NCBI GenBank assembly: GCA_023078555.1
Contig: CM041198.1
Span: 3,023,354-3,087,353 of the forward strand
DNA: 64,000 nt
Reading direction: 5' to 3'
DNA from: Ulva prolifera
Lineage: Eukaryota > Chlorophyta > Ulvophyceae > Ulvales > Ulvaceae
Under the pieces are notes generated by a model. That model had not been told where the DNA came from. It did no database searches and saw nothing but the letters and a program-made list of their open reading frames with translations. Positions 4,526-58,500 of the stretch are shown piece by piece (positions within the stretch are counted from its first letter, which is position 1; every line of letters starts with the position of its first letter). The translations under genes were made by a program, and so were the position numbers.

Positions 4526-4526
4526 G

Positions 4527-4826: not shown

Positions 4827-4974
4827 TGTCTTGCAGAAGGCTGCACAGGCATAGACATATACAGCAAAGTCAAATGAATGGGAATAGGCAAACACAACAA
4901 AAGGAAGTCTTCACAGTCAACAGTCACACGCTCCCCGCATATGCATCATCGGCGGAGTCGACGTCGACACGTGC

Positions 4975-5050
4975 ACGTGCACCGTGTAGGTTGATGTTGA
5001 TGCGGATGAGATTGGGTTTCGGTGTTTGTTTTCTCCCGTTCACTCTTTTG
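4975..5050 (+). mobile_element. LINE 3' UTR end, opposite orientation
   Basis: GTAGGTTGATGTTGATGCGG (about 4986) through TTTTCTCCCGTTCACTCTTT (about 5049) is the inverted counterpart of 4527-4594. The two make a roughly 65-bp inverted pair about 390 bp apart. I read it as two independent 3' ends of one LINE family in opposite orientation, not as a TIR transposon. A further short TTTTCTCCCGTTCACTCTTG tail is at about 5780-5800. Confidence 0.6.
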
Positions 5051-5968: not shown

Positions 5969-5999
<31 letters not shown>

Positions 6000-6050: not shown

Positions 6051-6191
6051 TAGCATTCGGTCACCTTGCAGCAGTTTCAGGGCTGCCATCCAGAATTTTT
6101 ACCTGAGACTTTGGGAGCGAGAAACCCCGAAATGTGTGTTCAAATTTGTTTAAACATGGAATTCCGATCACGGCCCGCCGGCCCAACACTG
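6051..6191 (-). mobile_element. Divergent member of the hAT-like miniature element family
   Basis: Read on the minus strand it begins CAGTGTTGGGCCGGCGGGCC and continues through an ATTCC core to GGATGGCAGCCCTGAAACTGCTGCAAGGTGACC. This parallels the intact copies at 22664, 22997, 52588 and 57145. It is about 141 bp, roughly 40 bp longer in the middle, and its flanks (GTGCAGGC and GCCATGGT) do not match, so the target duplication has decayed or the ends are misplaced. Confidence 0.6.
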
Positions 6192-22492: not shown

Positions 22493-22663
22493 GTGTGTGT
22501 CCTGAGCTGGAACTGGAGCTGTTCCTGAGCTGGAACACTGGAACAGCATGCAGTGAAGTGCCACTGTGGATTGCCACTTCCACTGGCTCAGTACATGTAG
22601 AATTACCTTGGTTCACTTACTGTGGCTCACTCATCGCTTGTCTGGGAGTTGAGCCGCCCTCCC

Positions 22664-22765
22664 CAGCGTCGGGTCATCGGGCCCGATCATATTGAACACA
22701 TCCGAATATTGAGGTCTGCAATGTGAATGGCAGCCTTGAACTCGCCGCAAAGGGACACGACTCTG
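22664..22765 (+). mobile_element. hAT-like miniature element, copy 1 (102 bp, degenerate)
   Basis: Begins CAGCGTCGGGTC and ends GACACGACTCTG. The flanks GCCCTCCC (22656-22663) and GCCCTTCC (22766-22773) match at 7 of 8 positions, as expected for an old 8-bp target duplication. The core CGGGCCCGAT...TCCGAATATTGAGGTCT matches the other copies. Confidence 0.85.
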
Positions 22766-22996
22766 GCCCTTCCTGCACAAATGCTCGGGTGGATTCAGAG
22801 TCAAGTCTACATCTGCTTGGCTGATCGGCGCGCGATCGAATCAGGCAGCAACCACTGCATTGCTTCGAGTACGTCTCGTACGTTACACTCGTACGTTACA
22901 CGAACGGACGACTGCTTAGGTGCTGTGAGTGGCTGGGCGAGTGATGCCTGTGCGAGTGATGCGTGCATGTTGCCTGCCTCTGTGGCAAGTATACAG

Positions 22997-23098
22997 CAGC
23001 ATTGGGTCATCTGGCCCAATCACATAGAATAATTCCGAATATTCAGGTCTAATATCTGGGTAGCAGTCCTGGAAATGCTGCAAAGTAACCCAACACTG
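22997..23098 (+). mobile_element. hAT-like miniature element, copy 2 (102 bp)
   Basis: Begins CAGCATTGGGTC and ends AACCCAACACTG. Flanks GTATACAG (22989-22996) and GTATACAA (23099-23106) match at 7 of 8 positions. It has the same length and core as the copies at 22664 and 52588. No coding capacity. Confidence 0.9.
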
Positions 23099-23290
23099 GT
23101 ATACAACCAGTATGCGGAGCGCTGGTTGAGGAGTGTCCACAGGAAGGTGTAGCCTACACGCAGACTTTGTTGGCACTTGTGTGTTTGTTTAGCGCGGTTG
23201 CAGCAAGTAATGGGGCCCATCTACTGAGCATGTTTCTGTTAAAAAAGCGTGTTTGTGTGTCCAGCGACCATGTCTGAGCACTGTGTGAGC

Positions 23291-23522
23291 GTGTATGTAC
23301 TTACAAAGGACAGAGGCCGGGCATGCCACCAGTTCTGTGTGTATGTATGTAGTTATAAAGGACAGAGGCCGGACATCGAGCCATTCCCCGGAATCGATTC
23401 GCAAATCCCCTTACTCGTTCATGGCACTAGGCCGGGCACGAGCACGTACCACAGCCCTGCCGATGATTCCAGCCAAAGATTGAAGCCCCGCACGGAGCAC
23501 AATAGCATTCCCTTTGCACAGC
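23291..23522 (-). mobile_element. Two stacked LINE 3' ends
   Basis: A roughly 47-bp tail fragment (23291-23338, GTACTTACAAAGGACAGAGG) is followed by a longer 3' end (23339-23522) homologous to 8949-9280, including the Arg/Ala-rich C-terminal coding scrap. The short-then-long order repeats the arrangement at 8902-9246. Confidence 0.7.
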
Positions 23523-23806
23523 GTATGTACGTATGCATATGAGTTCATGGCCACGTCCGTTGGGACATTGGTAATGTGTGCTGTCTCACGTTTCCTACCC
23601 GAGGCAAGTCGCAGCCAGCCAATGACAACGACCCTGCTTGGGCACGTTCTGCTTGCCCCTGGTTCCGTACCCTCTCTCCTGCCTCTGCAGCAACTGCGTT
23701 GTCCGAGTGGATACGTGCATTAGTGGAGACATATCCGCCCACTTGGACTCATGCTTACAGCTGGTCTTAAGTCCATCAAACAAACTCCATCCTGCATGGC
23801 TTGAGA

Positions 23807-24058
23807 TGGCCACAGGAGGAAGCCCACGCTTGTGCGCCCGGCTCAGTGTCCACCGCCATGTGCTTCCATTCGTTTGGAGCTGGCACGATCCTGTTCAGCA
23901 TATGGCTATCTAACGGCCATGTACTTGACGTGACCTTTCCTGCATTGACTGTGCAGGAAGCACGGAAGATACAGTCAGGAGCGAACATGCCTGGCTTCCG
24001 CCAGGGCTCAGCCAGCAGCGGCTCCAAGAAAAGGCGGCCCAAGAAGTCCAAGAAGTGA
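23807..24058 (+). CDS. Candidate terminal exon of an unidentified gene
   Basis: After an acceptor (GCCACAG) the frame runs 83 codons to a stop at 24056-24058, with STAMCFHSFGAGTILFSIWL, then SNGHVLDVTFPALTVQEARK, and a very basic end KKRRPKKSKK. It has no ATG of its own at the start, so it would have to be a 3' exon. No family is recognised. It is reported because the composition and splice context look coding. Confidence 0.3.
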   Translation, partial: WPQEEAHACAPGSVSTAMCFHSFGAGTILFSIWLSNGHVLDVTFPALTVQEARKIQSGANMPGFRQGSASSGSKKRRPKKSKK

Positions 24059-25583
24059 GGGGCTGCCACAGCAGCCACCACTAAAGACACTGCGACCACC
24101 AACACGGCGCAGCAGGCGATGCACTGCTGAGCTGGGCAGCAGCTGCTGAGCCTCTCACAGCCTCTGAGTCTTGGCTCTATCTACAGGCACATTGCATCAC
24201 AGCCTCAGACTGCCTTGCCTTGCGTCAGAGCTGCCTCATCTGTCTGCCTCGGGCCATGCTGAAGTCTGTGCTGGACCTTCACATGATGGCATGTGGTCGT
24301 ATTCTGAGGGAAGTCATGTGTCCGCACGGGGAACACGTGCCGCAGGGTAGATGGGGCACTCTGCTTGTGGGCAGATAGGAGATTGTGACCAACTTGCGAC
24401 GGATCTTGTGGTTGGGAGATAGGAGGCTCAACCAGCAGTCTGCTGTGGCTGAGTCCAGGTGGCTGTGTGGTCAGGCCTGGACAGATTCGATGGGGATCCT
24501 ACGTTGTTTCTGCCGATCATTGGTTTTTGCAGATCATTGGTTTGGTCGTGGTACAGCGCAGTCGAGTGTCGCTTTGGCGTGGGCGTGGTGAGACTTGCAG
24601 AGATGATGTCCGGGGTACAGAATGTTGGTGAACATTGATGTGTTTGATGTGCGGTGAGCGCTGCTGTGTTGCGGCAAGTGTCCGGCATATGTTTGAATGC
24701 TTGCTACAGCTGTTTGTGCTGCGATTCCTGACCTGGCAGCAACCGTGTTTTCAGCTGCCTACTATCGACTGGCAGCGGTCGAGGCGATGGATGATGTTGC
24801 AATGGAGGACATGCTGCCGCACATCTAATTGACATTTAAGCAGCGAATGCGATGCAGTATGTATGCGCCATGTTGCTGCCAAAACACAGATGCAAATGGA
24901 CGATTCGTCCCTGCTGTACTATAGTGGCCTTTCAGGTACATGGAGCAGCAGCTGATCAACAACCGTTCCCTCGTGGTATCCTAACGCATGCAGTGTTTCA
25001 ATGCAGTCGCCAAAAACCCGTCTAAGCGGAGCAGGGAACTTGATGGCGGGTGTCATTGATTCACAGGGCTGGCCACAGCGATGCATGACCGAGCACTATG
25101 GCTGAGACTGTGCTATGCACCCAGAAGCAATGTGGCAGAAGCAAATCACGCGTTTCTCAGGCATACTTTACATTGGCGGTGATTCAATTCTAGAGCCTGT
25201 TTTGCATCCGCAGGATTGTCTCTGTGGCCACTGGGATCCACCCGGCCCAACAGCTGGGTCGATGGCTTCGTGCCCGGGCGGTGTAGCGCTGCGAGTCAGA
25301 AACAAGCATGGCGATGATGCTTGGATATTTTCACGGTCCTTGCAGAGTGTAAGGCGATGTGTTGTACGTAGCCCACAGACGTCTCAAAATTGTGATTGTT
25401 TGAACCAATTTTCTCGAGCACACAGGTGGATGGCCATAGCGTGAGCGATCAGCGATCGATGAGAATCGCCATCACTTCGTAGCGACGTTGTCATGCAGTG
25501 TTGGCGCTGTGATGCCAGGTCTAGACCTGCGAATGCTCGATTCAGCGTCTGACTGTCGACAGCGACAGTGACTCCGACCTGCC
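24059..25583. other. Intergenic, upstream of RMD5
   Basis: No gene, RNA or repeat recognised. This segment must contain the RMD5-type promoter, but no TATA box or other motif could be assigned. Confidence 0.5.
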
Positions 25584-28500
25584 ATGTCATTTCCCGGGCA
25601 GCACCAGCTCAGCAACCTCCAGAAAGCGCAGAAGGGATGTCATCAAGTCACTGCAGATGTACTGGACGAAATGTCAAAGCTTGTCGAGACTGCTCTTGCG
25701 GATTTGCGAAGCGGCAAGGAGGACTCCGTCAAAGAGCTCTCCGCCCAACTGAAGAGCCGCAAGGTAGTGAAGCGGACGGCCAATGCAACAAGAGACTTCC
25801 ATTCGTCCATCAGGGAGTTTGGTGGGGTAAAGCTTTCCTTGTCCTTCGTATCAGGCTATCTGCAGCCCTCATGTTGAGCACGCACAGCAGGCGGGGCAGT
25901 GTAAGCACACAGGACTTGGTCCACCCACGACTCGAACGCTGCGTACCACAGACTCTAAACTCCAAAACTTTGCAGATTCTCGATGAAAGCTACGGCTTGG
26001 ATGTAAGCGAAGCTGCACGACCAGAGCGCCTGGATCCCTGGTATGTGAACCAGGTATGTCATTGCAGTCCATCTAATCGCACAAAAACGCACGCATACTA
26101 CGCCATCCCTCCATCTATGTCCCGACTATCAGTGCATTTGCATTTCGGCTTCGACCCATGCCAGGCCGACACCAAATTTGGCCCGGTTGCCCTGACACAC
26201 GATCCATTCAGGATCGACAAACGTGGCCTTGAGCAACGAACATCTGGTGGCTGCACCTTATCAGCTAGTGCATGCATCCTCCGCGCCTGCAACAGGCAGC
26301 ACATGGTCACAGGCAAGCCTGTTCCAAACGATCTCAGCATCACCAACCTCGCCATATCTGTCGTTCAAGGCTCCTTGCAAGGGACGATCATTGCACTCAC
26401 ACTCCAGCATACCGAACACTTGATAGTTCACGCATGCCGTCTGATCCTGACAAACAAGGCACCTACATGAACTGCTTGCGTGTGCATGCATACCTTCCGA
26501 TTCTCTTCGATTCTGATGCAACTTCTTCACGAAGGTAACTGTACATGCGTATGTAGGTGATCGTGAACCACCTGTACCGTGAGGGCCTGTTCGAGAGCGG
26601 AGACGCCCTGGTCGAGGAAGCAGGCCTGCCCGACGACACCGCAAAGGCGATGAAAGAGACGTTTGCCCAGATGCACGAGCACCTCTCTCAGGTGCACCCC
26701 CTCCAAGCGCAGATGCTTTCCATTTGCACTGGCCTGGCAGTGCCCTGCGGCCCCATGTTGGGATGAGTTCGGACGAATCGTCACACGCACCTCTGATGGC
26801 CTCTGAGGCTCTGGTGGTTGCTACACACCAGCGGTGCCATAACCTTGTGTGGGTCCTGTATGTATTTGTGCATGGCCACATAGCTTTGTCCATCTGGAGG
26901 TTGACGACTGCGACCATTTGGTTCGGATCCCTGCGCCCGATCGTCCTCGATGGAGTGTATGGAAGCCTGGTCAGGCTGGCACCTCTCTTTCTCTTTTCTT
27001 AAAGTGCCCATCATATGCATCAAGCCCAGCTGACCCTCCAGGCACCCTTGCGCTCGCTGCAAGGATGTCACACGAGGCATGGTGCCTGAACTCTGGAGGT
27101 TCTGCCCCCAGCTGGACTCGCGAAATCCCTCACAGGCGTGACAGGCAGTGCCACCCCAGATTTCCCCCTGTTCCATTCCAGTCGATGACCTGTCCTGCGG
27201 CAGCAAGCGAACAGCCTCACCATGTTCAGGGCATCACATTCATCTTCCCTGAATTGGACTGCTATCTTTCCTCTGCATATGTGGTCAACTGGGTCCACAA
27301 CATCATGCGGTGCAAGAGATCTGTGCGTTACATACACACACGGAGGCACTAGACCACACAGAAGGCGCAGGCGCACTGCAGCGGTGCGCGACTGACCAGC
27401 GTGGCTGCTGCAGATTCGAGCGGGGAAGCTGTGGGATGCCCTGGCGTGGGTGCGCAGCCACAGGAGCATGCTCAGCGAGGAGGGAGCCCCGACCGCCCTC
27501 GAGTTCAAGCTTCTCCGCCTCATCTTCCTCCAAACTCTGGAGCTCGACGGTGTGGCTCAGCCTCTCTCGCTGCGCCTGAACGTGACTCCTAAACAGCGCC
27601 ATTGCCAAGAAGAAAGAGCACCGTAGTATTGAGCAGACAGTGATGTCAAAGCAGAATCTGAAAATTCTGTTCTTTGTTGCATGGTCCATCTGATATGCGG
27701 TGAACTCTGTGCCTTGTCCTTTCTGCCCTGCTCTCTTCTGTGCAGCTCAATGTCCCGGCCTGCACCATGCCCTCCAGCAGATAGACATACCGATAAAATC
27801 CTCACTGCCTTCCGTCTGACGTGTGCCGGCATGCCTGCCCGGTTGCTACCGCCATCCGCTGCCACTGCACCCAGGGATGTCGCCCCACTGACCCTCCGAC
27901 CAAGTCCTCTGTCTTCACCTGACGTGCGACACGTAGCACCGTTGCAGGGCTTTGTACGCGTATATGACTTGAGGCATTTTTGTGAGTCCTTGCTGTGATC
28001 GCCTGACCCGGTCCACATCCCGCCACTGCCGATCAGTGATCAGGCAACAATTGTGGCACATATGTGATATGTGAAACATAGTACCCCACCCCCCCTTCAC
28101 GGAGGGTCACGCTAAGTGGTCCGTGGTATGGTGGACATATCATGGACTTGCGACCCCCACCCCCTGATTCCCCTGGTTCTCTGTTCCCCGGTCCCCAGGG
28201 CGCGCACCTGACAATCACACCCGACAAATGCAGCCTCGTTGCTCGCCCTCTGACCCGCCGTGGCGTTCCCGCACACTCGCATCCTCCATACACCACAGCC
28301 CACCCCGCTCGTGTGCACAGGCATCACGGCGGCGCTCGCGTTTGCAAAGGGCAACTTTGCGCCCTTCCAGCAGGACTTCTTTGCGGACATCAAGCGCCTC
28401 ATGGGCTGCCTCGTGTACTCTGGGCGGCCGCTGGCAGGCACGCCGTACCGCGACCTCGCGTCGGAGCGGCTGCTGCAGGAGGCCGCCTCCGACTTCGTCA

Positions 28501-31500
28501 AGGCCGCCTGCGGGACCCTCGGCCAGGTGAAGCCCCCCCCCTCCCCCCCTCCTTTCAGTCCCTGAGCTGCCCTTGTTGTCAGTGGTGCTGAGGGAAGCTT
28601 CCGCGCTGTCTCCCTCCTGCAGTTCCTGATCTGCCCTTGCTCTCAGTGATCAATCACAGAAGATCGGGCCTTTGTATGGCAGATCACAACCTAATCACCA
28701 ACACGTAGCCAACACAACATCACCTCGCAGCCGAGTCAGTGAGCCGGACCATACTGCCCTTGCTCTCAGTGGTGCTGAGAGCAGCTTCTGCCCTGTCTGT
28801 TTCTGTGTGATGGCCAGAGCATTGGTACCCTTGGAGACCCGCGTTGTCTGTGGGACTGCGGCTAGAAACGTGCGACTGCGGCAGCAGATGACTGAAAATG
28901 AAACTGCGACTGCGGCAGCAGCTGTTCTCTGTTCCCCGGTCACTGCAGTGTGAACCTCCCGAAGATGATCAGCTCCGATCGCTCCTTGTCTATCGGCTAC
29001 GTACATATGACCTGTGGTCCCGGAACTGCAGTGCCGTGGCGCTCAGATCTGCGCACACTCTGGCACAGCCATTCAGCTGCACATGGATAGATGTTCAACG
29101 ACAGCTATGCAGACTAAGGTGCACATGCAGCATAGCGCACCACAGCATGAACCTGTCCCGGATGGTCTGTTGATTTGTTATGAGGCTGCCACTCAAGTAG
29201 CACGACATGTGCATCCTATTCTCATCTGTTGACGATTGACCCTCCGGGGTTGGCGCTTTTCGCTCAACATGAAGCCATTCCCGCAGTCACGGCTTGAAGT
29301 GTTCATGCCCGATTGTCCCCGCATCAACTCGTGGTCAAGGCAGCGAGGCGCCCTGCCTAGTTTGTTTTGGACAGCTCTGGCTTCGCTGCTGACCCGGGCA
29401 GGAAAGCCTTTGCAAACGTACATACATTATTCACAAACATCAGAGGTATATATCACATGTGTGTGCTCATCGAGGCAGATTTCGGGCCACAATGGCAGCC
29501 ACGTCCTGAGGTTCCAGTCTCCAGCAGCTGCTGCACATTGCAATGCCACATCTGCACAATCGCATGTATCAAGACAGCTGCATGTATCCTGAGAACTTTT
29601 GCATCGCACTTGCATTCCATTTCGTGTTGCTGCTTTGCCAGTGCTGTCTGCGGACGCAGGTGTTCCGAGGCTTTGTGTGCCAATTCCATGTCACAAATTT
29701 CCATCTGTACTGTGCTAGACCTAGACCTATCGCACAGCAACCACGCAACGGTAACCGAGAGCCACAGAGTCGCAGCGGTCAAATAGAACAAGCCTGTTTG
29801 ATCCTTGTTCATTTGTGATCCAACCAGACGTGGATCAGGGCAGGCTCCGTTTTGAGCTGCTACTGAATCAACATCGCAGCTTGAAGCCCAGGCTTGCCCA
29901 GCCAGCTCAGGCACGCAACGCCACACTCGATGCTCCATTGTTCATGCTTCTGATCTATTGTTGCTGCTGTGGTCTTGTGTCTTTCTGATGCTCGCACGCC
30001 AGGGACCATCATTTGGGGCTTCTTTTTTTTTATATATATGAGAATGATATAAACAATGATTGCATCGTACATTCATTCGCCTCATCCATTGATTTCATGG
30101 CCGAGTATGGGCCCTGGTATGGTGTGTCGGAGCACAGCAGTCCCTTCGCCACTGCCCACCAGCGGCCACCTTCCCACCAGGCCATGTCTCAGACAGCAGG
30201 CCTGCCACACTGGCCATCCAATCGCGATTCAGTGGCCATCAAGGAGAAGGGAAGTCAGCACGAACAGCTGCCATAGCTTCATGACACCAGCTGCAACAGC
30301 AATGCTACGCAGCCCAACTCTTGGTGCACAAGGCTCAGCTACCAGCCAGGGCTACTGATGTGCTCACTGGACTCCCTGACAGGCTCCATGGCCTAGCACC
30401 GAACAGCGCAGACTTGTTTGCTTGTGCGACTGACAGTGCAAGCTTGGGCATGTGCAAGTTGTGTTGTCCTTACCGATTGCCCATTACAAAGCTCCCATTA
30501 CAGCCAGCCATGGCCTTGTGAGGATCATCTGCGGCTGTAGAAGCTGCGGTGTGATCAGGGTATCAATCAGTCAGAAGGCCTCGTTGAGCCGGCGATGGCG
30601 GTGCTGGGGTCAACAACATGCTGGTGGCACAAGCCACTTGTAGCGTAAGGGCACTTGTAGCCCCCTGGTCGTTGCCTGCGGTGCTGCCTGCCTTGCTTGC
30701 TTTGTCCTTGCAACACACAAGGCACTTGCAGCACAAGACAGAAATTCGGAGTAGTCAATGTCCTCTCAAGGAGACGGCTCAGTAAGCCCAGGTTTATCTT
30801 CACTTTATTTTACCCGCACCCACACCCACACCTTGGGTAGCACGACCATTACTCTGATTATTCTGTCCGAGACTAGATGTTCAAGGTCAGACCAGTGCAG
30901 CTCAAACTTGGCCACCTCAGTGCCCTGCCTGTGATGATGCCGACACTCAGTCATCCAACCTTGCTCCAAGACGCTGGAATGTCCACAGTATCAGGTCACC
31001 AGGTCACCACATGGTCCAGGACTCAGTGCTGTCCGCCGCGTTGTCCTACCAGCACATGCTCCAGGATTCCACCAGGACAGCTGGTCACACAGAGCCACTG
31101 CGTTGTGAGTCTTCGCTTCTTCGGGGCTGAGGTGGGCGGCCGAGGCGAGGTGGTGCGAGAATGTTCTTCATTTGGGGGCAGTTCTGAGCTCCCCCAGGTG
31201 AGTGAGTGGGTTGCTCTGAGCTGTCCTGTGCTGTGCGGTGCCCCCTAGGCGTGCACATGTAGTGCACGGTAGTGCTAGGCTGTGGCGATCCAGTGGTACA
31301 GCGGCCATACCACTGGATCGCCACACAGGCCCTACCTGCTGCTTCGCTTGACCCATGAGGCGCTGCCTACCTCTCCGACTTTGCCCTTCAAGGGCACAAT
31401 GCGAGCACATCACCAGTCTCCTGGGGGCTACGGCGACAGCCGCATCTCACGTGACACTGCGACTACAAGCACCATGGGCATCACAGAGGCAACACACACC

Positions 31501-33612
31501 ATCAGTCCATGCAACGCAATGCAACGCAGGCGTTGCCTAGTAGTGTGCTCTAGCACTCTGCCGTCCACGAGCCCGGACTGCTGTAATTACAACAGTCCGT
31601 AATCACAACAGCCCGTGTACTCACAACAGCCCGAGCTGTTGTGATCTGTTCTCCTGCAACTCAGTGCAACACGAGTCCTCTGATAGGCACCACAGGTCCT
31701 GCGAGTGGTACATGTGACTCACTAGTAATTCGCGCACCTGCACTCGGTAATGTGATGGATTTCGGGTGACTGTCTGAGCCCTGGCAGGAGAGACCACACC
31801 GGACTCTCCGGATCGGCTGGACCCCACGTTCCTGACAGAAATGCACCGTGTCGTTCAGGGTCATTGTATTCGCGTCATCAAATCTGTTTTGTTGTCCGTG
31901 GGTGCTTCTGGATCAAGCTACCGCTGGTGTGGCCATGGGTGTGTAACGGGGGCACGGCTGTGTGCCTGGGTGTGTGCCGTGAGGCCGCGCCATAGTGCCT
32001 GGAGTGGCTTCGCATCGTGCTACGTCTAGAGGCAAGGCTGACAACACATTGGGCTGCGCTGGGGTGCTGTGCGCTGGGGTGCTGTGCGCTGGGGTGCTGT
32101 GTGCTGGGGTGCTGTGCGCTGGGGTGCTGTGCGGTGCCCGCGGCGCTGCCTGCGTCTCTGGCTTTGCCATGACGTCGCCACGGCTGACGGCGTATCGCTG
32201 ACTGGGGACTCTACCTGGGAGTGGGCAGACAGCTTCAATCCCGCCTTCAATAACCGAACACCGGGCTGAATGCCTGTGTTGGTCTAGTGGCACTGCTCCG
32301 TCAAGATGAGTGAATGCGGAGAGTGTGTGTCGTGCGAGGCGTGCGGTACCTCACAGAACGGGGTCACAGGACCAGGTACCTTCAACGTCCTCTTCAGGAT
32401 ACGGCTCGGTAAATTCAGTTTCGCTTTACTTTACTTTGCCTGCCGGGGCACCGCGCCTGCCGGGCACACACGATGCAGCTCCGAAATTGCATTGAATCAA
32501 CCCACGCCTTCCTGTTCTCCACAGTACACCCGTCTCTCAGCGCGCTGCTGGCCACTCGATGAGCTTCCAGCAAAGCAGGCAGGGCGCCAGATCGACAAAG
32601 ACAGGGAGAGTGTGGTATGGGGCGCAGATCAAGGTGAATGAAGACACGGGCGTGCGTGTGTGGTGAGTGACAGGAAACGAGGAGCCGTTTGTGTTGGGAG
32701 TTAAGGTGTGGGGACAGGGGCGAGCAGGAAGGTAGCACGCCAGGACCGCCGGGTCATGGGGGAACAACAGCAGCTACACCGCATACATCCCCAAACCTCA
32801 GCAGGCGTCTCGTGCGGGACACGTAGCCCCTCACCACCGCCAGAAAAACTCAAACACTGCACGCTAGCCTGCGCCTGGCAAGTGTGAGAGACCTCGCCGC
32901 CACACCCGCCCGCAAAAACTCCAACACACGCGCGGCCCTTGCTTTGTTTCGTGCCGGTATCGGGCGGGTGCTTGTTCTGCGGGGGATGCTGGCTGGGACT
33001 CGCGTGTGTTGTGCTGAGTGATGACGTTGCTGCTGCGCTGCTCGCTGCGGTGCTACCTGCCTCTCCGGATTTGTCCTTGATACACACATCGCCCATTCGT
33101 CCTTCGTTTGTGGGTTTGCTGCACACATGTGTGACTGCTCAGTCTACGTTGAGACACGCTTGAGACACCCCCACGCAGGCCAGGCAAAGCGTGGCGCCCC
33201 ATAGAGACAGTACACTGATGTGGAGGTCTGTGCGCAGGCTAGCCGGAGTCCACTAGCAGTGACGGTGGCGGCAGGCTCCGTTGCCCTCCCCCAGCTGCTC
33301 AAGATGATCAAGGTCCACAAGATGTCGTCCATGTCAGGGCCACAGATCACCAGCCTCACCAACGAGGACACGATGCCGATAGAGCTCGAGCTGGGGCCAG
33401 GCTTCCAGTTCCATTCCATCTTTGCCTGCCCGGTTTCCAAGGAGCAGGCACTGCAAGACAATCCTCCCTACATGCTCCCATGCGGCCATGTCCTGTCTCT
33501 GCATACGATCGAGAACATGGCTGGCATCCGGCAGACATTTAAATGCCCTTACTGCCCGGAGGAGTCAGATCGAGACGGCTGCAGGCGGTTGTACTTTCCA
33601 GACATCACGTAG
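25584..33612 (+). CDS. RMD5: RMD5/RMND5-type RING E3 ubiquitin ligase subunit (GID/CTLH complex)
   Basis: Six exons join in frame to 391 codons including the stop, the usual size of the family: 25584-25826, 25976-26053, 26557-26691, 27414-27549, 28321-28526 and 33238-33612. The order is helical N-terminus, LisH-like segment (VNHLYREGLFESGDALVEEA, from about residue 108), CTLH/CRA (about 150-265, with LEFKLLRLIFLQTLEL), then the degenerate Gid-type RING with PIELELGPGFQFHSIFACPV, CGH at 348-350 and CPYC at 369-372. In yeast and animals this subunit pairs with Maea/Gid9 to ubiquitylate metabolic enzymes. ATG 25584 gives a complete N-terminus. The last intron is 4711 bp and carries repeats, a hairpin and a minisatellite. 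Exon 3 ends at GTGCAC, a weak donor, chosen because it keeps the frame. Confidence 0.92.
30754..30816 (-). repeat. GAGCC repeat copy 4, in RMD5 intron 5
   Basis: On the minus strand: GTAAAATAAAGTGAAGATAA...GGGCTTACTGAGCCGTCTCC...GAGGACATTGAC. Antisense to the host gene. Confidence 0.65.
31281..31325. repeat. Perfect 18-bp hairpin in RMD5 intron 5
   Basis: TGTGGCGATCCAGTGGTA (31281-31298) and its exact reverse complement (31308-31325) around a 9-nt loop. Both strands therefore encode the same short MAIQWY peptide, which is a palindrome artefact. Confidence 0.85.
32056..32130. repeat. 15-bp minisatellite, five copies
   Basis: Five units of GCGCTGGGGTGCTGT, the fourth with GTG in place of GCG, inside RMD5 intron 5. 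Confidence 0.9.
32381..32439 (-). repeat. GAGCC repeat copy 5, in RMD5 intron 5
   Basis: On the minus strand: AAAGTAAAGTAAAGCGAAAC...TTACCGAGCCGTATCCTGAAGAGGACGTTGAA. This is the longest copy at the AAAGTAAAG end. Antisense to the host gene. Confidence 0.65.
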
Positions 33613-37933: not shown

Positions 37934-37965
<32 letters not shown>

Positions 37966-43304: not shown

Positions 43305-44555
43305 TCACGCTCTCACCTGCGGCCGCTCGCGGCTCTCGTGCCGCCCCCGGCTTGGCTGCCGCTCACGGCTGCGCCGCCGCTCCGCCGTGCCGCCTCCGCC
43401 GCTGCCCTCCCGCCGCCGCTGCCGCTGCCGCGGCGGCCCAGAGTCCGCCTCCGAGTCCGACCCGCCCCCGCGCTTCCCCGCCGGCCGCTTCCGCGGCTCA
43501 CTCCGGCCCCGCCCCCGCCGCTCTGCCGGGCTCGGGCTCCCGCTGTCCGAGCTGCTCGACCCGCTCGAGCCACTCGAGCCACTCGAGCCACTGCTGCTGC
43601 TCGACCCGCTGCCGGACGACGAGGAGTCGTCGTCGTCCGCCGACCCCCCGCCCGCGACCTGCGCCAGCGCGCGCTTGAGCTCCGTCTCGCGCATCTCCGC
43701 CTCCGCGGCCGCCAGCGCCGCGCGCAGGTCCACAGTGATTCCGCCGAGCCCGATCGCCGTGAAGAAGTTGATGCTGAAGCGCATGTTGGCCATCGAGTCG
43801 CGGGGGAACACGCCGCCGAGGTGCGGCGCGACGTCCGGGTCCCGGAGGATCTCGTTGAGCCGTGTCAGGCTGAGATTCTCCGCGAGGTCCTTGAAGAGGT
43901 ACTTGTAGAAGATGCGGGTGGCTGAGGTGGTGTCGGCCTCGGTGACGCGGACCTCCCGGAGGACCTCCCAGGAGAGGGCGCGGTGGCCAAGGAGGTGTGC
44001 GAAGAGCTTCGCGATGTTGCGCAGCTTGTTCGTCTCGAGGCGGTGGCAGAGCTTGAGGTTTCGGACGAAGCAGTCCTCAAAGGCGTGCCTGCAGCCAGTG
44101 TCGGGTCGCGCCGTAGCATTGACAGGGCTGGCATCCGTCAACTGCACCTACCTTTCTAACACTGTTCTACGTGGTCAGGGCCGCCGACCGGACACTGCCT
44201 GCAACGCGGAGGGGGGCGATTGCGCCGCGGCCACATGGGGTGTGCATGAGCACAGCACGCGAGCACCTGCAGCGGCCGGGTCTGCGAAGTGGGGCACGGC
44301 CGAGCATGGGCTGCATGCGCCGGCCGCCCTCCGCAAGGACGGCCCCGCAGCAGCATCGTCTCCTCGAGGTGTCACAGACCCCGATGAAGGCCGGGCAGGT
44401 GTGGCCCGCGCGAGCCTCAGACTGACAACGCCGACAGGCGCGCGGACGACGTGAGCGGGGGCCATTGCACGGCACCTCTCCGAGATAGACCGCATGGCAT
44501 CACAACCACAAACATCTGAATTCGAAGTCATCTGCGTGTAGATATTTGGAGAGAA

Positions 44556-44586
<31 letters not shown>

Positions 44587-48642: not shown

Positions 48643-49753
48643 GGTCCGACTTGCCAGGTCAGCGACAGCTGCTGTAAAGTGTCCCCAGTGTTGATACTCA
48701 CAGCTGCGACGACCACTACGTCCTGTTTATCGACAGGCCCCGAACATACGAAAGGTGGAGCCAGCGGCGACCTGAGACTGTCAATCACACTCAACGTCCC
48801 CTAAATTCGATCTCTTGTCGCCATCTCAAGCCTGCACGTCGTGCAGCTGTTCCACTGCTTGCCAAGGCCGGATTGCCAGTGGCTGAAACACAGTTAACCA
48901 CGGCCTGCCTCGCAGGATGACTACTCCCATGAGCATACACTTCGATATCAGGTGAATGTTTCATTAGCTTGGTCTGTAGCCTGGAAGCATGCGTATCGAC
49001 AGGTCAAATTGAGCACACAAGCGACGGTGGTGTTGAGCCCGAGATTTCAATACAGAGATTCAACCCATCGCACCAACTGGGAGACTTGTATGATGAGCGA
49101 ATGCGTGCGCACCTGGATTATGTATTTGCTGCAGCAGAGCGACTGGCCACTTGTCTAAGAGCGTGCCTTCAAAATTCAATGATTCTATAACGATAGAAAA
49201 CCTGAAACTGCAAAAATGCGATCCAGTCTAGCGCTAAATTGCGTTAAACAAGCTCGTTTGCCATTTTGAGACATGTGTGGCATGTCGGCCCTGCAATTTT
49301 CGCAGCATGGCCTCATTCCCGGATGACAGTGCTTCCTTTGACCGTGATTTGTAAGCAGTACATCTGGCCAATGAAATCTCCCATTTCTACTCAGTGTCGT
49401 TCTACGTGTTGCCCATCGATCCACGCTGTTGTGGCGCTCGGGGTTGCTGCGCTTGCATGAGGCTGAATTCTCACCATCCCACGCATGCAGGTCTGCGATC
49501 ATAACAATACTACAACAATGTATGTTGTGGTATAAATACGCAATCGCTGGGATTGAACTGAGTGACCGCACTGCCCATGGACTCCAGCTCCAGATGTGAC
49601 GCTCGTGACCGGTTGTCGCAACGCAGGTGCTTGGTATAGTTATGTCATAAATAGCGTATGAATCATGGCATATATAGAGACAGCTGGTCGCGGATGTAGG
49701 ACTGATGTACACAAAAATCTCTCCTGTGTGAATTGCTTGCACAGCGTATAAGC
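48643..49753. other. Bidirectional upstream region, CWC22 and NIPA
   Basis: The two genes diverge from this 1.1 kb segment, so it must hold both promoters. TATAAATA occurs at 49531-49538, 216 bp upstream of the NIPA ATG, and could be a TATA-like element. No gene is recognised inside. Confidence 0.45.
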
Positions 49754-52177
49754 ATGGACACCACCGAACGAGAACGACTTGAGTTGGAGGTCGTCCAGCA
49801 CGATCCAAGTGTCAACGATCGTAATGTTGGAATTGCACTGGCAGTTTGCAGCAGCGTCTTCATTGGGGCGAGCTTCATTATTAAGAAGAAAGGCTTGCGG
49901 CTTGCTGGGAACAGCGGGCTACGAGCAGGTACAGCCTCGCTTCGATGAAGCACCATATACTGGCCTATCCCGAGCTGAGCCGGTGCAGCCCTTGAGAGCT
50001 TTGACTCGGCGGTGCCTCAGAGCGATCGGCCCATGCAGGAGCTGGGGGCCTCGGCTACCTGCGCCAGCCCATCTGGTGGTCAGGAATGATCAGCATGGCT
50101 GTTGGGGAGCTGGCAAACTTCGTCGCATACGCGTATGCGCCTGCAATCATCGTCACCCCCCTCGGAGCGCTCTCTGTGATCGTGGCAGCCATCCTCGCCC
50201 ACTACATGCTCAAGGAGCGCCTCAACACCTTCGGAGCGCTCGGGTGCTTCCTCTGCATCGTAGGCTCCATCAACATCGTGATACATGCTCCGCCAGACCA
50301 GCCATTCACATCCATCACGCAGGTGTGCGGACCTTCCCGACACCCACCCCACCTCACCACCTCCAACACAGCCACACAGCAGAAGATGCACTACGCAACT
50401 CAGCTGGGGTCCATATGTCCTCACACTCTCGCTGATGCATCTGGTGGCGCTTATCCGGCCTCACGTCACTGCAACTGGTGCCGTGTTTCACCACATACAG
50501 CAGGCCACGCTCTTTGCCTCTGCTCAATCAACTCTGCGGCGCACCTCCCCCCAGAACAGAATCCGCCCCTCTCCATTGCACGTGCACAAACACGTATCCG
50601 TGGAGCACATGCGGGCATGAACAGGCTTGCTGTCACCCGAAACATGCCACGCAACGGGGCGAGCTGCTGTGATTTGTCCACCCGCACCCAGCAGCTCCCC
50701 CCCGTCGACGTTGCTTGTATGTTCTCGGGCCGCCCAGCCCGGCTCGGCTTTGCGCTGTGAGCAACGCACACCGCGCATGCAGATCCGCGCGCTCGCGCTC
50801 CAGCCGCCGTTCCTGCTCACCGCAGCCGCGGCGGCGGCCGCCGTCACGTGGCTCATCGCCGTCGCGGCCCCCCGCGAGGGCACCGCCGGCAGCGTCCTCG
50901 TGTACGTCGCCATCTGCAGCCTCATCGGCGGCTTCACCGTCATCTCCTGCAAGGCCCTCGGCATCGCGCTCAAACTCACCGCGGCCGGCCACAACCAGCT
51001 CGCGCACCTGGACACGTACCTCGTTGCCGCGGTGCGTTGCGCGGGCCGCGTGCGCTGAGGTCGTGGCGCGTGCTACCCTCCCGCAGTGTTGAACTGCAGG
51101 GTGTGTGCGCATGTCAGCATGCATTGTGGCCACTGGCACTGCAGATTGTATCACGGGGGCCTGTGTGGGGCTGCGCCCGGCTCTGTGCGTGCTGTGGCCG
51201 TGCTGAGCGTGCTGTGGCCTTGCGGTGTGTGCTGGGTGGCCTTGCTGGCCTGCTGTGGCCGTGCCACATGCGGGGACGCGGATGTGCTGTGGTGCAAGGC
51301 GAGGAGGCAGGAGTTGCCACAGCAGCAGCATGCATGAGGCGCAGGAACAGGCACAGCTGTTGTGCTATTCTGTGCTGGGCTGTGGCGTGGGGTGGCGTGT
51401 GGCCGTCAGCGTGCGCGATCGAGCGGCGGGGCGCTCTTTGCAGTGATGCAGTTGAGCACGGGAGGTCGTGCGGGTGTGTTGATCGGCTGAAAGCGACAAC
51501 AGAGCGCAGATGCCCCTACCACCATCTTCGCCGGCCACTCCTGCCTCAGACGAATAGTAAGTAGTCTCCTTGGCCAGCCGGCCTAAATCGCTGGCCTAAA
51601 TCGCAAGCGGTGGGAACGCCCGTCCTTGTAGACACACGTCCACCGTGAGCGCCTTCGTGTAGGTCACGGCGGCGTGCCTCACGTCACAGATAACTCCACG
51701 TGAACTTTGCTTGACAGATGCGCATGCATGCAGGTCACGGCGGCGTGTATCACGACCCAGATGTACTACCTCAACCGCGCCCTCGACTCCTTTAACACTG
51801 CGATCGTTACCCCCCTCTACTACGTCATGTTCACCACGGCCACCCTCGTTGTCAGCGGCGTGCTCTTCCAGCCGCGGCAGGCGCCCGTCGCCGTCGCCGC
51901 GGAGGCGTGCGGCTTCGCCGTCATCGTCGCGGGCACCTTCCTGCTGCACACGACGAAGGACCTCGAGGGTGTCGGCGGCGGCGGCGGTGTGGGGAGTCCG
52001 ACAGCGGCGTCGGTGATTGCACTGGGGCTGCGCGGGGGGGAAGGCGGGGCCGCGGCGGGGGCAGGGGGGGACGTGGAGGAGGGCGCGGGGGGCCGGGCCG
52101 AGGCGGCGGTGCTGCTACGGTCGACGACGCGGCTGCTGGAGCGGGACACGTCGTCAGCGGCGGGGCGGGCGCGGTGA
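49754..52177 (+). CDS. NIPA-type magnesium transporter
   Basis: Exons 49754-49928, 50039-50322, 50783-51031 and 51734-52177 (TGA) join in frame to 383 residues, typical for NIPA proteins, which are multi-span membrane transporters of magnesium. Diagnostic stretches: GIALAVCSSVFIGASFIIKK, YLRQPIWWSGMISMAVGELA, YAPAIIVTPLGALSVIVAAI, ICSLIGGFTVISCKALGIAL, TTQMYYLNRALDSFNTAIVT and PLYYVMFTTATLV. The C-terminus after about residue 310 is a low-complexity Gly/Ala-rich tail. Exons 3 and 4 have much higher third-position GC than exons 1 and 2. The first 20 bp of exon 4 are duplicated 71 bp upstream behind another AG. The neighbour CWC22 is divergent. Confidence 0.93.
51663..51682 (+). repeat. Micro-duplication of the NIPA exon 4 start (decoy acceptor)
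   Basis: GTCACGGCGGCGTGCCTCAC directly follows TAG in intron 3 and copies the true exon 4 start at 51734 with two mismatches. Splicing here would read on into intron sequence, so it is probably a decoy or remnant. Confidence 0.7.
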
Positions 52178-52189
52178 CGGCGGGGTTGC

Positions 52190-52191
<2 letters not shown>

Positions 52192-52220
<29 letters not shown>
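52192..52220. repeat. 29-bp G tract 3' of NIPA
   Basis: An uninterrupted G run starting 15 bp after the NIPA stop codon. Confidence 0.9.
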
Positions 52221-52587
52221 CGTTGGTTTCGCGCATGGTTTCCGAAGAATGCATCGGGTGTGGCGTGCGAGCGGTGCGCCGGGGGGGCGAGCGCTACAGT
52301 GTGGCGCCCCGTCCATGACGGCCCTGTCTAGATTGCGATTGCAAGGCCGGAGGCGGGCTCTGCTGGTGAGCGCTACAGTGTGACGCCCCTGCAGACATGT
52401 CATATTGCAAATGGGCGGCCGGAGGCACGACTCTGCTGGGGTGGCCGTAGGCGCCTGAGCAAACATCGCTCTAGAGATAGGATGTAGACCAGCAAATAAT
52501 GGACTGTCATGCATGCGCGGTGCGCCAGAGGGCTCGCTCCGGTGAATCGGTCACTGCGGGAGTGACCCTGAATGTGTGTGTGCGGAG

Positions 52588-52689
52588 CGGTGTTGGGTCA
52601 TCGGGCCCGATCACATAGAGAAATTCCGAATATTCAGGTCTCATTTCTGGGTGGCAGCCCCGAAAATGCTGCAAAGCAACCCAACGCTG
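52588..52689 (+). mobile_element. hAT-like miniature element, copy 3 (102 bp)
   Basis: Begins CGGTGTTGGGTC and ends AACCCAACGCTG, flanked by a perfect 8-bp target duplication GTGCGGAG (52580-52587 and 52690-52697). The core TCGGGCCCGATCACATAGA then TTCCGAATATTCAGGTCT is shared with the other copies. Confidence 0.95.
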
Positions 52690-52697
52690 GTGCGGAG

Positions 52698-55244
52698 GGT
52701 GGCGGCTGACGCAGGAGTCCGGCGTGCTTGATTGACAGAGGGGTGGCGCGGGCGGGCGTGCAGTGCAGCCTGCTTTGCAGTGGCACCAGGCAGGCGCGGG
52801 TCGCTGCGCGGGTTGCTGCGATCACCATTTTCCAGTTTGTAGGCGGGCGGGGCGTGGGCTCCCGTTGCACTGATCAAAACACAATGTCGCGGGAAGGTTG
52901 CCACGAGCGAGTGTGTGGAGACCGCAGGAACTCCGTGTCGGCCCCAGCTGCCGGAGTGTTGATTGCCGTGGCGCGATGCCTGTGGACACACGTGGACACA
53001 TGCAGATACATGCATGCTTGTCAACTGGGTTCCTGGCAGTCCTCACCATTGGCTGCCCGCGGCACTCGTCAGCGGTGTATGGCTGCTGGTTGGAGGTGCT
53101 GGCTGTGTGTCGATGTCTTGTGGCGATGCTTGTGATGTAGTATGCTTGTCTTGGGTCGGCTTTGGACAATTCCCCCCCCCATTCTTTTTTCTGTCGGTGA
53201 CAGCATGCTGCTGATACGTATAAGGGCACCCCTAACAGGTATGAGAGCACCCGTCCTTCATTGATGTTCCACAGCGATCACCCAGGGCCGGTGGATCGCA
53301 GCGCTTCTTCACTGTAATGATGCAAAGCAAAAGAATGAGCTGCGACAGATTGCTGAGGTGGTGACAGGGGCAGACGAATAGCGGCTCGCTGCACGAGAAA
53401 CGAACCAGCAAGAAAGCGCAGACAGCGTGCTGAGCATGGAACAGACAAGTAGCGAACAGCCTGCACAATGCTGGGCTGACTTGCTGTACAGGCATGCTGT
53501 ATTCTCATTGATACAAGAGTTGACGGCTGTCAACCGTTCAAATAGGATCGCACCCGCCCGCCTCCCTGGCGATCACTAACGCTGGTTGGAGCAGCCGAAA
53601 CGGAGGGGGCCGGAGCTGTGGTTGCAGGGACAGCAGGCAGGACAGCCTCATCGTCACTGGAGCTTTCCAGGTCCGCCAGGCAGGTGGGGGCGGCAGGAGC
53701 CGCGCAGCCGGATCCATTCGAAGGAGCGGCCTGGAAGCCCCAAAGCACGGCAATTAAGACCAAGAGCGATGCACACCGGATGCAGCAAGCATGCAAGCAG
53801 AAGGCAGTAGTTTGTACTGCTGGGTTTGTGATTTACATGAGCGGTTTCGATTGGCGAGCTTGTTCACAGCTGCGGCGCCGCCGGCGTCATACTGGCCCTT
53901 CCCGCCCGCTGCCCGGGCAGTATGAGGGCAGGTCTGAACGTCAAACCGTGTAGACCCCGCTGACAGCAGGTTCATGCTTACGTTTCTAGCACATCTTCTC
54001 GTGAACAAGCCGTCACAATGCCGGCGCAGTGCAGTAACAATGTTAGGCACCTTACGCGAGGGCAATTGTAGTTCTCAGTTGAAATTTTAAAATTTCAAAA
54101 TTACCTGTACATCGACACCTGTTGCACCGTGGTGACATGGCCGAGGGTTGCTGTGCGGCGCACGAAAGGCAGGCCTGTCAGAGTGTGCAACACAGAGACG
54201 GCCTGCTCGCTGTTTTTGCAGCGCTGCTGCCTTGGTCCATGTAACACAGAGACAGCCTGCTCATCCTGCATGATGCATCCTTGCACCCCACAATGGGGCC
54301 AGGAGGGCCGAAGTATGGCGCAGCAGCTCTTGAAGGGGGGGCACCTCAGTTGGCCACAGCCGCCCGGGCGACGCCTGCGGGGGCCCACATCAGCGGCCCA
54401 GTGCCTGTCCACCGGCGAAGCAGCCTCCGCGGTGCCCTGCGTGCGTGCAACTCACCATAGAGCTGCAGCATGCAAGCTGCGAACTGCAGAGTCCTGGACT
54501 GCGCCGCATCATCCATCATACGACCACGGCATGGCGTGCACATGCATGGGATGGGCAGCAGACGTCAGCACGTATGCATGCACCGCACGGGAATCCGCGG
54601 GAGCGCGTGACCGGCATGACGTGGCTAGGGTGGATAGCGTAGCTGCATCGCAAATGCTGCGCGCCCGTGGCCACTGAGCAGCACAAGCTGGCACCACACG
54701 GCCTGCATGCGCAAGGTTGCAGCGCGAATCGGCACGTGGAAGCCGGTGTTTTCATGATTATAATTGAGTTGTGTTTCGCGCACGGGTCTGTCACCCATGT
54801 TACAGCTGTGGTGCCCATGCGTGCAGGCCTCGCACTGCAGCTACATCATGTTGCTCAGCCGTAGTGGAAACTGGGAAATAAGCGAAGATGATATCTGGAG
54901 ACAGGCGGCGGTTACTGGAGTACCAGGAAGCAGTCCATGAGTGCTGCGATGGCTGCACCGCAGGTACATGCTGCATGTGATGTCTAGCGCTGGTGCTTTG
55001 GGCACGCTTGTGGCTGCTTTCAAGGCAGAAACGAGAGGCGAGACCTCGAATCTGGGCGTGACTCTTGTTGTGCGCAACTTTTTACAGCAGAGTGACGGAT
55101 GCAATTGACCGTGGCCCGCATCGCGCGTCGCTCTAACTGAATATGTAGCACGTACCCGCGCCTTTGAAGCGCGCTGCCGGGAGAAACGTGTCTCTGCAGC
55201 TTCTCCTACGCACTGTGTGTGGCTGGAGATGCACAACGTGGTGT
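52698..55244. other. Intergenic between NIPA and the glycosyltransferase pair
   Basis: No supported gene. A minus-strand frame at 53530-53796 encodes a hydrophobic N-terminal stretch (CASLLVLIAVLWGFQAA) and a Ser/Pro/Ala tail, resembling a secreted-protein start, but it begins with TTG and no partner exon was found. Confidence 0.45.
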
Positions 55245-55552
55245 TAACACGCTGTTAGCTGCGACGCAGGCTGCGAAGCCATCTTGCGAAGTGCAAGCTC
55301 GACACGGGCACTGCTCACATAATCAAACTGGCACAGACTGCAGATGCAAAAAGTCATGTACCAAGGACCGTAGTCGCACGAAGTGAGTTTTCGATCCGTG
55401 CGCCTGCATCAGCGTCATCAGCCCGGCAGATGCAGTCCGCAAACATGCGAAACAAACGCACTGTGCACCATTCTGAAGTCACCTTCTCACCCTATTTTCA
55501 CACGACGTCCTGATCAGCTTCACCACTTGCTTCAAAAGCGATCTGATAATCT
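55245..55552 (+). promoter_or_regulatory. 5' flank of glycosyltransferase copy 1, duplicated at copy 2
   Basis: Blocks such as GCGAAGCCATC...TGCAAGCTCGACA...GACACTGCT and GATCAGCTTCACCACTTGCT recur before copy 2 (about 62700-63016). The tandem duplication therefore includes promoter and leader. No core promoter motif was assigned. Confidence 0.5.
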
Positions 55553-58500
55553 ATGGTTGGCTTCCGGAAGTCCAGTGTGGGCAAATATCTGCTGGTGTCG
55601 ATCGTGTGCATCGCACTGGGCCTGGCGCCATTGGCGTCGACTGCAGAGGCTGTGGAGCTCGAGACAGCTAGGCATGACTCCAACGCGCTACTCAGAGGAG
55701 ACCGCATGTCTTTGCACGAAAGTGGTACGACCTTGCATCCACAGTGTTGCGCGTAGTCCTCATGCAAAGTCCATGTGCGGAAGTGCTGCAGCTTGCTGCA
55801 GAGGAGCAACGTGTGCCGGAAAGCAAACTCCTGGTCATGAGCTCATGACCTGCGGTTGCGTGCGTTTGATTGCGCTTGCGTGCTGGCGATGACCGATCAG
55901 CATTGTCAAGCCACGCTGAGCTCCATGGATCGCGATGTAGGGGTATTCTTGCAGAATCATGACCGGATACAAATTTCCAAACGCATGAAGCACCTCAAAC
56001 TTGTTTTTGTAGCGCAACAGCCGACGCTGACTGGCATGGTTTTGCTAGCAGACCAATCAACCATCGCCTCGAGCACACTAGCTCCTGTAATCCCAAGTGC
56101 TAAACGAAAAGGACCTCATGCCCGCTCAATTGCCTTTTGGCTCTGGTGCAATGAACTCCAGGATGTCTCTGATGTCTGCGATGAGTATCAATCAGAAGGC
56201 TGGTGTAGTTTACTTGTTGCCCCGAGTAGTGTGTAGCCAGCACTCCACATGGTCACATTGGCAACCAGCACATACACACTTCCAAACTTGCTGAAACAAG
56301 CAGATACACACTTCCAAACTTGCTGAAACAAACCATGGAGTCAGTCCGCGTGAGCCAAAGACCGCACGTCAGACCGACGTCAGACCGAACACCGCACGTT
56401 CAATTGTGCTGCACCATCTGATATCATATGGCGCGTGTGCTGTATGTGTGCATGGTGTCGCTGTTGTGCTGCGACCTAGCACTACCAAGTCGGGATGCAT
56501 CCCCGTGCGAGTGGTGCATCCCATGCACGTCATCGCGTCCACGTCCGTGCGTATGTGTCCAACGTTGAAGCATACCCTGTGCCTATTCCTACCCTGCAGC
56601 AATTGAAGTCGGTCACTGGCACCTCGCAGCACCGGTAGACCTCTACAGAGGTGTTGATAACCTCTGGAGGTACATCTCAGATCTACAGGCGTGTTGTGTG
56701 GCTGACAGCCCATCCGTGTGGCCTGCGCACCGGATCGTGGTGAATGCGGACACATCTCGCGCAACCCACCCGATGCAGCGCGAACACATTGAGCGGCCCC
56801 TTACTTTACAAGCCCCTGTGCGGGCATCTGTGCGCGCCGCTGGGGGGTCCCCCACACCACCCAGCACCCTGGGTGCCCGCACAGAACCATGCATGCCATC
56901 AGATGCCTACGGAGGAGCCGCCTGCATGTTTCTCGGATGGGTGAGGCGGGGGGAAGGGGTCGGTGCAACCGTGTGGCTGCACCGACCTCATGCAGTGTAT
57001 TGAACAACATATCAATGTCGCAGCAAAGTATGTCAATCACTGAACTGCTCCATTCAAACACGTACATTCTATGATAAAAGGAGATTTGCGTTGACTACTT
57101 GCGGCTGGCCCAGGCCAGGTACTACCCCTACTAGTAGTGATGGCCAGTGTTGGGTCATCGGGCCCGATTACATAGAACCATTCCGAATATTCAGGTCTAC
57201 TTTTTGGGTGGCAAAGCGACCCAACACTGGTGATGGCATGGCCCGCTTTGAACTGGAGGCAGGGTGGCCTGGCACCACATCGGGCCTCTGCTGGGCGTCA
57301 GATATCGCCAGTGACGTGTGGTGAGAGTGTTTGCAAAGGTGGTGGCCCCAGAGATGAGGTGTATGGCACACTATTGGTGTGCACATGGGGGCCATGGGGC
57401 CGTTGCGACGCGGGCGAGGGCGAAACTGCACGCTTCGCAGTGCGCACTGCGGGGGAAGTTTGCGGGCATGCTAGTTCCGGGTGGTGCTGCGGTGTGTCAC
57501 TGTAACATGCTTTTTACAAGAACCGAGTCCAGGAGGCAGGTACTACTAGTACTAGTAGCAACGGCAGGATGAATTGTGTGGGGTGTCACTGTGTAGATGT
57601 TGGTTCTGTGGTTCGGGCGACGCGGTGCTTGCGGTGCTGCATGCATGGGCATCTGCCTCAACCCCGCAGCCTGCACGTCTCACACGCAGCAGGCAGGAGG
57701 AGGGGCGTGCGAACGGACTCACGATCCCTCGTGACGACCGCTCACTGGCCAGACAGCCAGTGAGCGCCGGGCCGCCCCTCTCCCCCCCGCCGGGCGATTC
57801 GTCCCCCCGGCCTCCACGGCCCGGCTGCTCAGCTTTCTCCGGAACGCGGCGGGCTTGCTTGGACGCTGCGGATGTGTGGCCTGTAGACGTGGTGCCAGGG
57901 CCACGGCCTTGCCGCAGGCGGCGGGCAGTGCAGGCTTTGGAGCAGGAGGGCTGCGCGACGGGCGGTGTTGAGTGTGCTGTGCACGGCAGATGTGTGTTGG
58001 ATGCATGCGGAGGGGCGGGGGCCAGGGGCGGGGGCCTCGGGCAACCAGGAGGGTCCCGTGGTCTTGTCCCAGAACAAACTAATTAACAACCGCTGCGCCT
58101 CGGGCACGGCGGTTTGCGCGTCGCCACCTCGGGCACAACTGTGGTAGGTCGTTCTTTGGGTGGGCCAGCTCGATCTCACGCTGTGTATACATGTGGCGGT
58201 GTTGATCGCGCGGAAGTCACGGTGATTTGCGTGGTTGTCGTGCTGGGCAGCTTTTTGATCTGCCTGGGGTGCTGGCTAGCTGTGGCTTGGGTGTTCTGTG
58301 TTGTTATTCATATTCCCGTCGTGTGTGCTGGCCTTGCCGTGCTATCTGCCCCCTCATGTTTGTTCTTGTCACTACGCCGCGGGTGCATGCGGGTGGGTGG
58401 GTATGTGCGGGTGTGTTGCAAGGATAAAAGCGGCGAGGCGGGCAGCACCGCGAAACCAGCAAGCACCGCGAAACCAGCAAGCAGTGCAAGACCACATTTG

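Follow-up and report, generated by a model that had tools for sequence, protein, structure and literature searches.

A 102-bp hAT-like MITE family and a larger hAT family with nearly the same termini

Introduction

The window considered here, the whole stretch of 64,000 nucleotides that was analysed, carries several short segments that resemble one another, end in 12-bp inverted repeats and lie between near-identical 8-mers. Three questions follow, namely: whether these segments are insertions of a hAT transposon, how large a family they belong to, and where the enzyme that moved them is encoded. The ends of hAT elements are short inverted repeats starting CAG-N-G or similar (YARNG). Duplications of 8 bp do not by themselves separate hAT from the P, Merlin and Kyakuja-Dileera-Zisupton superfamilies. 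An earlier note, made from the window alone, had described four dated insertions of a non-autonomous, miniature, hAT-like family.

MITE copies in the window

The four copies of the earlier note (copies 1 to 4 in Table 1) are present as described, with lengths of 102, 102, 102 and 85 bp, 12-bp inverted ends, a common core and the flanking 8-mers that had been given for each of them. Four insertions are nevertheless too few, as a profile search finds at least six copies in the window, including two older ones that had been missed, copies 5 (profile E 6.8e-10) and 6 (profile E 2.9e-10). The profile was built from 54 copies, window copies 1-4 among them, and it recovers these four at E 9.7e-32 to 3.1e-23; copies 5 and 6 lie outside the training set. 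The best match in the reversed window, used as a control, has an E of 2.5. Two random 8-mers are expected to match at 7/8 or better with a probability of about 0.0004, and five of the window copies reach this level; the flanks adjoining copy 6, which is decayed, match at only 3/8.

The copies also differ in their details. The CGG of copy 3 is a mutated first end, and copy 4 has a single 17-bp internal deletion, which is seen in this copy alone, as the alignments of all 39 other scored copies stop at or before query base 73. A subterminal palindrome, ATCGGGCCCGAT, occurs once per MITE; it is intact in copies 1, 3 and 4 and mutated in copy 2.

Neither RNA families (at gathering thresholds) nor tRNAs were found within the window. 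A structured RNA or hairpin was also considered for the MITE and rejected: DNA folding of the four copies gives z-scores of 0.19, -1.06, -1.72 and -2.82, the strongest being that of the 85-bp copy, in whose fold the inverted ends pair.

Table 1. Positions of the MITE copies, the subterminal palindrome and the larger hAT loci. Positions without a contig name are those of the window.
Feature	Position	Position with flanks	Strand	Flanking 8-mers (agreement)	Remarks
MITE copy 1	22664-22765	22656..22773	+	GCCCTCCC / GCCCTTCC (7/8)	
MITE copy 2	22997-23098	22989..23106	+	GTATACAG / GTATACAA (7/8)	
MITE copy 3	52588-52689	52580..52697	+	GTGCGGAG each side (8/8)	
MITE copy 4	57145-57229	57137..57237	+	GTGATGGC each side (8/8)	85 bp
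MITE copy 5	44096-44197	44088..44205	-	GTTGCAGG / GCTGCAGG, minus strand (7/8)	102 bp
MITE copy 6	6051..6191		-		141 bp
Palindrome, copy 4	57157..57168		+		MITE bases 13-24; common to the larger hAT family
Palindrome, copy 1	22676-22687				intact
Palindrome, copy 3	52600-52611				intact
L068	C7:1535882-1539259				frame-broken; holds DUF659 (E 3.7e-36)
L077	C7:4103397-4106588			CTAGTTAG both sides	1100-bp internally deleted copy; left end CTAGGCTGGGTC
L059 hAT element	L059 3234-5830 = C4:10090233-10092829			(8/8)	2597 bp; ends CAGTGTTGGCAA/CAC; 489-aa ORF with DUF659 and hATC

Family size and structure

The genome searched is compact, GC-rich and eukaryotic, and amounts to 88.9 Mb in 44 contigs. 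Across it, there are 881 exact 12-bp MITE ends, where a reversed-pattern control has 11, paired exact ends (CAGTGTTGGGTC / GACCCAACACTG) 87-117 bp apart occur 192 times against 0, and the 19-base core at three mismatches or fewer occurs 849 times against 3. Pairs with both ends intact number 192 and single ends about 497 (881 less 2 x 192, some of them due to chance), from which we infer a family of about 1000 copies, if both ends decay independently. This figure is probably a lower bound, because five of the six window copies lack an exact end.

The element is exactly 102 bp long in 36 of 54 distinct copies, and two subfamily consensus sequences differ at seven positions; the family, 102 bp at full length, thus comprises at least two subfamilies. 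Its members are short and non-coding, carry inverted ends and are present in high and homogeneous copy number, as is characteristic of MITEs. Since a unit of 102 bp is too small to encode a transposase, the family is non-autonomous, and on this point, as on its miniature size and its status as a family, the earlier note is upheld.

Target-site duplications

Flanks were compared in 54 distinct copies, nine rows with identical elements and one non-copy having been left out. One element left out as identical (L021) is really a second site: the same 102-bp sequence stands without a duplication in L014 and with an 8/8 duplication in L021. Among the 54 copies, the adjoining 8-mers agree at 8/8 in 27, at 7/8 in 15, at 6/8 in five and at less in seven, so that 12 fall below 7/8; five, including L006 and L014, stand at 4/8 or lower. 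One set in which copies were counted by element and flank has 33, of which 21 have 8/8 and 29 at least 7/8. The mean flank identity of the 54 copies is 0.868 for the adjoining 8-mers; with any other length or shift that was tried it is 0.15-0.32. Duplications of 8 bp, with homology that stops at the element's ends, are therefore found in most copies, which passes the refutation test that the earlier note had set.

The duplicated 8-mer has the palindromised consensus STGYRCAS. When measured against local composition, T at position 2 (30/42, p 6e-13) and A at position 7 (28/42, p 1e-11) are both strongly preferred, and sites of this kind therefore fit the hAT rule nTnnnnAn. The joined flanks of the 54 copies gave six spanning matches in the sequences compared, none of them an empty site, because each reads as a match of a site to itself or to one of its tandem copies.

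Decay of the target sites with divergence

The window copies had been read earlier as an age series in which target-site decay tracks element divergence. The trend stands: the more diverged a copy is, the more mismatches there tend to be between its duplicated sites (Spearman 0.34, p 0.011, n=54), also among the 49 copies whose flanks match at 5/8 or better (Spearman 0.44, p 0.0014). The strict series does not, as decay tracks divergence weakly. Five of the window copies can be placed in order, namely: copy 5 (28.7% diverged, 7/8), copy 1 (22.5% from the subfamily A consensus, 7/8), copy 2 (12.7%, 7/8), copy 3 (8.8%, 8/8) and copy 4 (3.5% over 85 aligned bases, 8/8). The sixth, at 17-21% divergence, has flanks of 3/8. 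L006 and L014 run contrary to the trend, being little diverged with flanks that match at just 2/8. The decay with divergence is thus real but coarse; eight target-site positions make a coarse clock, and the sample favours young copies.

Assignment to hAT

The ends of the 192 exact pairs have the form expected of hAT, and together with the 8-bp duplications and their nTnnnnAn composition they support the hAT-like reading of the earlier note; the copies are almost certainly a hAT MITE. Another superfamily that duplicates 8 bp, namely P, Merlin or Kyakuja-Dileera-Zisupton, could be proposed on the ground that the length of the duplication has no discriminating power. Such an origin is very improbable, as the site preference and the hAT-type ends speak against it, as do near-identical termini on larger elements (see below), one of which has coding sequence related to a protein with DUF659 and hATC. 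It could also be argued that the copies were spread by segmental or tandem duplication instead of transposition, and some were: L084 and L091 are a single copy duplicated, and three copies on contig C7 (1421946, 1436535 and 1451121; L029-L031) share their flanks at a spacing of 14.6 kb, as would be expected if a large unit were arrayed in tandem. As a general account, however, duplication is refuted by the 42 of 54 distinct copies that have an 8-bp duplication of their own, with many different 8-mers, and we give it practically no weight. The full explanation, a non-autonomous hAT MITE family moved by a hAT transposase encoded elsewhere, is very probable.

According to this explanation, the transposase would bind the 12-bp inverted ends and probably also the adjoining palindrome ATCGGGCCCGAT, a putative binding site. 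It would then excise the MITE and insert it at STGYRCAS-like sites, where the target would be cut with an 8-bp stagger; the 8-bp duplications would result from this joining.

A larger hAT family with similar termini

The earlier note had looked to a larger element with the same ends and a hAT transposase. Such an element exists as a sister family, which bears DUF659 and has nearly the same termini; its ends are not identical to those of the MITE, and no intact hATC transposase was found for it. The left end of these larger elements, CTGGGTTGGGTCATCGGGCCCGAT, matches that of the MITE at 22/24 bases, a match that would arise by chance near any of about 28 hAT loci with a probability of about 1.5e-6 (uniform bases). 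In L077, the last 14 bases of the right end, GCGACCCAACCCAG, match the MITE's GCGACCCAACACTG at 12/14. The terminal inverted repeat of this family, which begins with CTGGG, differs from that of the MITE at bases 2 and 4. The palindrome ATCGGGCCCGAT is found twice near the left end of L077 and once, with one mismatch, near its right end. Apart from the termini, no counterpart of the MITE interior was seen in the larger element.

L068 aligns with L077, another member of the CTGGG family, over 877 bp at 91% identity, and the alignment begins 5 bases left of CTGGGTTGGGTCATCGGGCCCGAT in L068. When the L068 stretch was used as query, 40 of 76 candidates were scored and yielded 59 match rows; 34 of the first 40 rows begin with the query's base 1, the point at which it had been cut. 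Four copies, L077 included, were read at both ends; three of them have 8/8 duplications, among these a simple ACACACAC, and the fourth has 7/8. The coding remnant of L068 matches, at 45% over 126 residues (E 1e-30), a transposase with both DUF659 and hATC, that of L059. We take DUF659 to be linked to hAT, the more so as the protein P0001 carries it together with hATC. Pfam lists DUF659 as of unknown function. No intact CTGGG-family transposase was seen, and none of the 17 hATC (PF05699) matches in the genome adjoins L068. P0001 has no PDB relatives at E 0.01, and the 26-base left end has no match in viral contigs.

The pattern CAGTGTTGGGTCATCGGGCCCGATGG at two mismatches or fewer has 143 places, 100 of which were listed. 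The matches listed form two groups, CAGTG...GATCA-like and CTGGG...GATGG, and none of them combines CAGTG with GATGG; bridging forms among them are a few CAGTG-type copies with GATGA and one CTGAG end.

Two further features of the L068 locus were noted. The 37 bp directly left of its hAT element (L068 753-789) recur with 92% identity at 1991-2027, directly after the transposase fragment, which places the copy in rearranged or tandemly duplicated DNA. At L068 2059-2139 there is a decayed MITE-like stretch (E 0.001).

Candidate sources of the transposase

Of the roughly 497 unpaired exact ends (68 on contig C1 among the first 100 places listed), 22 were read, namely: the 20 leftmost plus-strand ends on C1 and two that flank a 4.6-kb candidate. 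No long element with exact MITE ends was found among these 22, of which 21 are MITE copies (two of these arose by duplication of one copy); the remaining end, L099, is a 12-mer that occurs by chance. The 4.6-kb candidate itself (C1 10141502-10146147) was rejected, as both its exact ends belong to separate MITEs. Other hAT families delimited in the genome, all with 8-bp duplications, have the ends TAGGGATGGCAC, TAAGGTCCGCCA, TAGGGCTGGCCC, CAGAGTTGCATT and CAGTGTTGGCAA/CAC, the last being those of the L059 family.

Two of these larger families come into question as the source. The L059-type family begins with the same nine end bases as the MITE (CAGTGTTGG) and has an 8/8 duplication and an open transposase ORF; its left ends lie at 12 places (two mismatches or fewer), and five distinct derivatives, shortened by deletion to 0.79-0.91 kb, also have 8/8 duplications. 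Its likeness to the MITE ends after those nine bases, however, and its subterminal repeats are ATACGCGTAT-like as against ATCGGGCCCGAT in the MITE, whereas the CTGGG family agrees with the MITE at 22/24 left-end bases, palindrome included. We therefore regard the L059-type family as an unlikely source of the mobilisation, and the CTGGG family, or its immediate relatives, as a somewhat probable one. The likely source of the enzyme would be the hAT family with ends CTGGGTTGGGTCATCGGGCCCGAT ... GCGACCCAACCCAG, or else a close relative with CAGTG ends that may be extinct. Because neither a long element with exact ends nor an intact CTGGG transposase was seen in the searches above, the link between the MITE and the CTGGG family is limited to common recognition sequences, through which the enzyme would presumably have acted in trans.

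The 102-bp unit may moreover be close to a minimal hAT substrate, consisting of the 12-bp ends and a single palindromic site ATCGGGCCCGAT. The transposase that raised it to about 1000 copies would then have ends of its own that depart from those of the MITE at 2/12 positions. Given that difference, the palindrome, and not the first four end bases, would carry recognition. We offer this proposal tentatively and consider it doubtful.

Comparison with known hAT systems

The relation of the MITE to its larger partner resembles that of maize Ds1 to Ac. Ds1 elements are likewise short and of high copy number, share with the transposase-bearing element just the TIRs and a few subterminal repeats, have a common filler of their own and make 8-bp duplications (PMC3260210). 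Ds1 is about 400 bp long, whereas the MITE has 102 bp, and Ds1 has the 11-bp ends of Ac, whereas the MITE has 10/12 end bases of the CTGGG family. The mobilisation of Ds by Ac is experimental, while that of the MITE is presumed.

Other short non-autonomous hAT derivatives are alike in kind: the rice elements nDart1 and dTok appear among the hAT MITEs (PMC12595863), the BniHAT families of Brassica nigra are described as high copy (PMC7385995), and of the 24 copies of BuT2 in Drosophila willistoni, some of which are MITE-like, most have TIRs and 14 have TSDs that are identical (PMC3942097). At 532-927 bp, BuT2 copies are far longer than the MITE (PMC3942097). For Hermes, the literature reports the same 8-bp target rule, nTnnnnAn (PMC10368747, PMC2803484), and a transposase whose BED domains bind subterminal repeats (PMC10368747). 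Hermes differs in being a complete element; the ORF pieces tested, from L059 and L068, gave no BED match in Pfam.

The 12-bp MITE end, as a string, is absent from the literature searched, and the family may bear a name in repeat databases. As far as tested, it is new as a family and ordinary as a kind, and it leaves existing knowledge of hAT transposons unchanged. This hAT MITE family is clean and very short, its copies are diverged to different degrees, and a larger relative can be seen; it would be of help in annotating the genome. Its ends, paired with those of the CTGGG family, could be used to test the roles of subterminal repeats and outermost bases in hAT recognition.

Other repeats in the window

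A 974-bp segment at 61504-62477 has 104-nt inverted ends that are 97% complementary and start CCCCCATGTTATTTTC. As CAACAAGA lies directly left of it and again 3 bases past the right arm, the segment probably represents a further DNA transposon that made a duplication of 8 or 9 bp. A second segment, of 520 bp at 4529-5048, has 65-nt inverted ends, also 97% complementary. Imperfect direct duplications with spacings of roughly 1.75 and 2.0-2.2 kb occupy 380-4600, and long poly-G/poly-C runs lie near 5970, 15090, 37930, 44560 and 52190.
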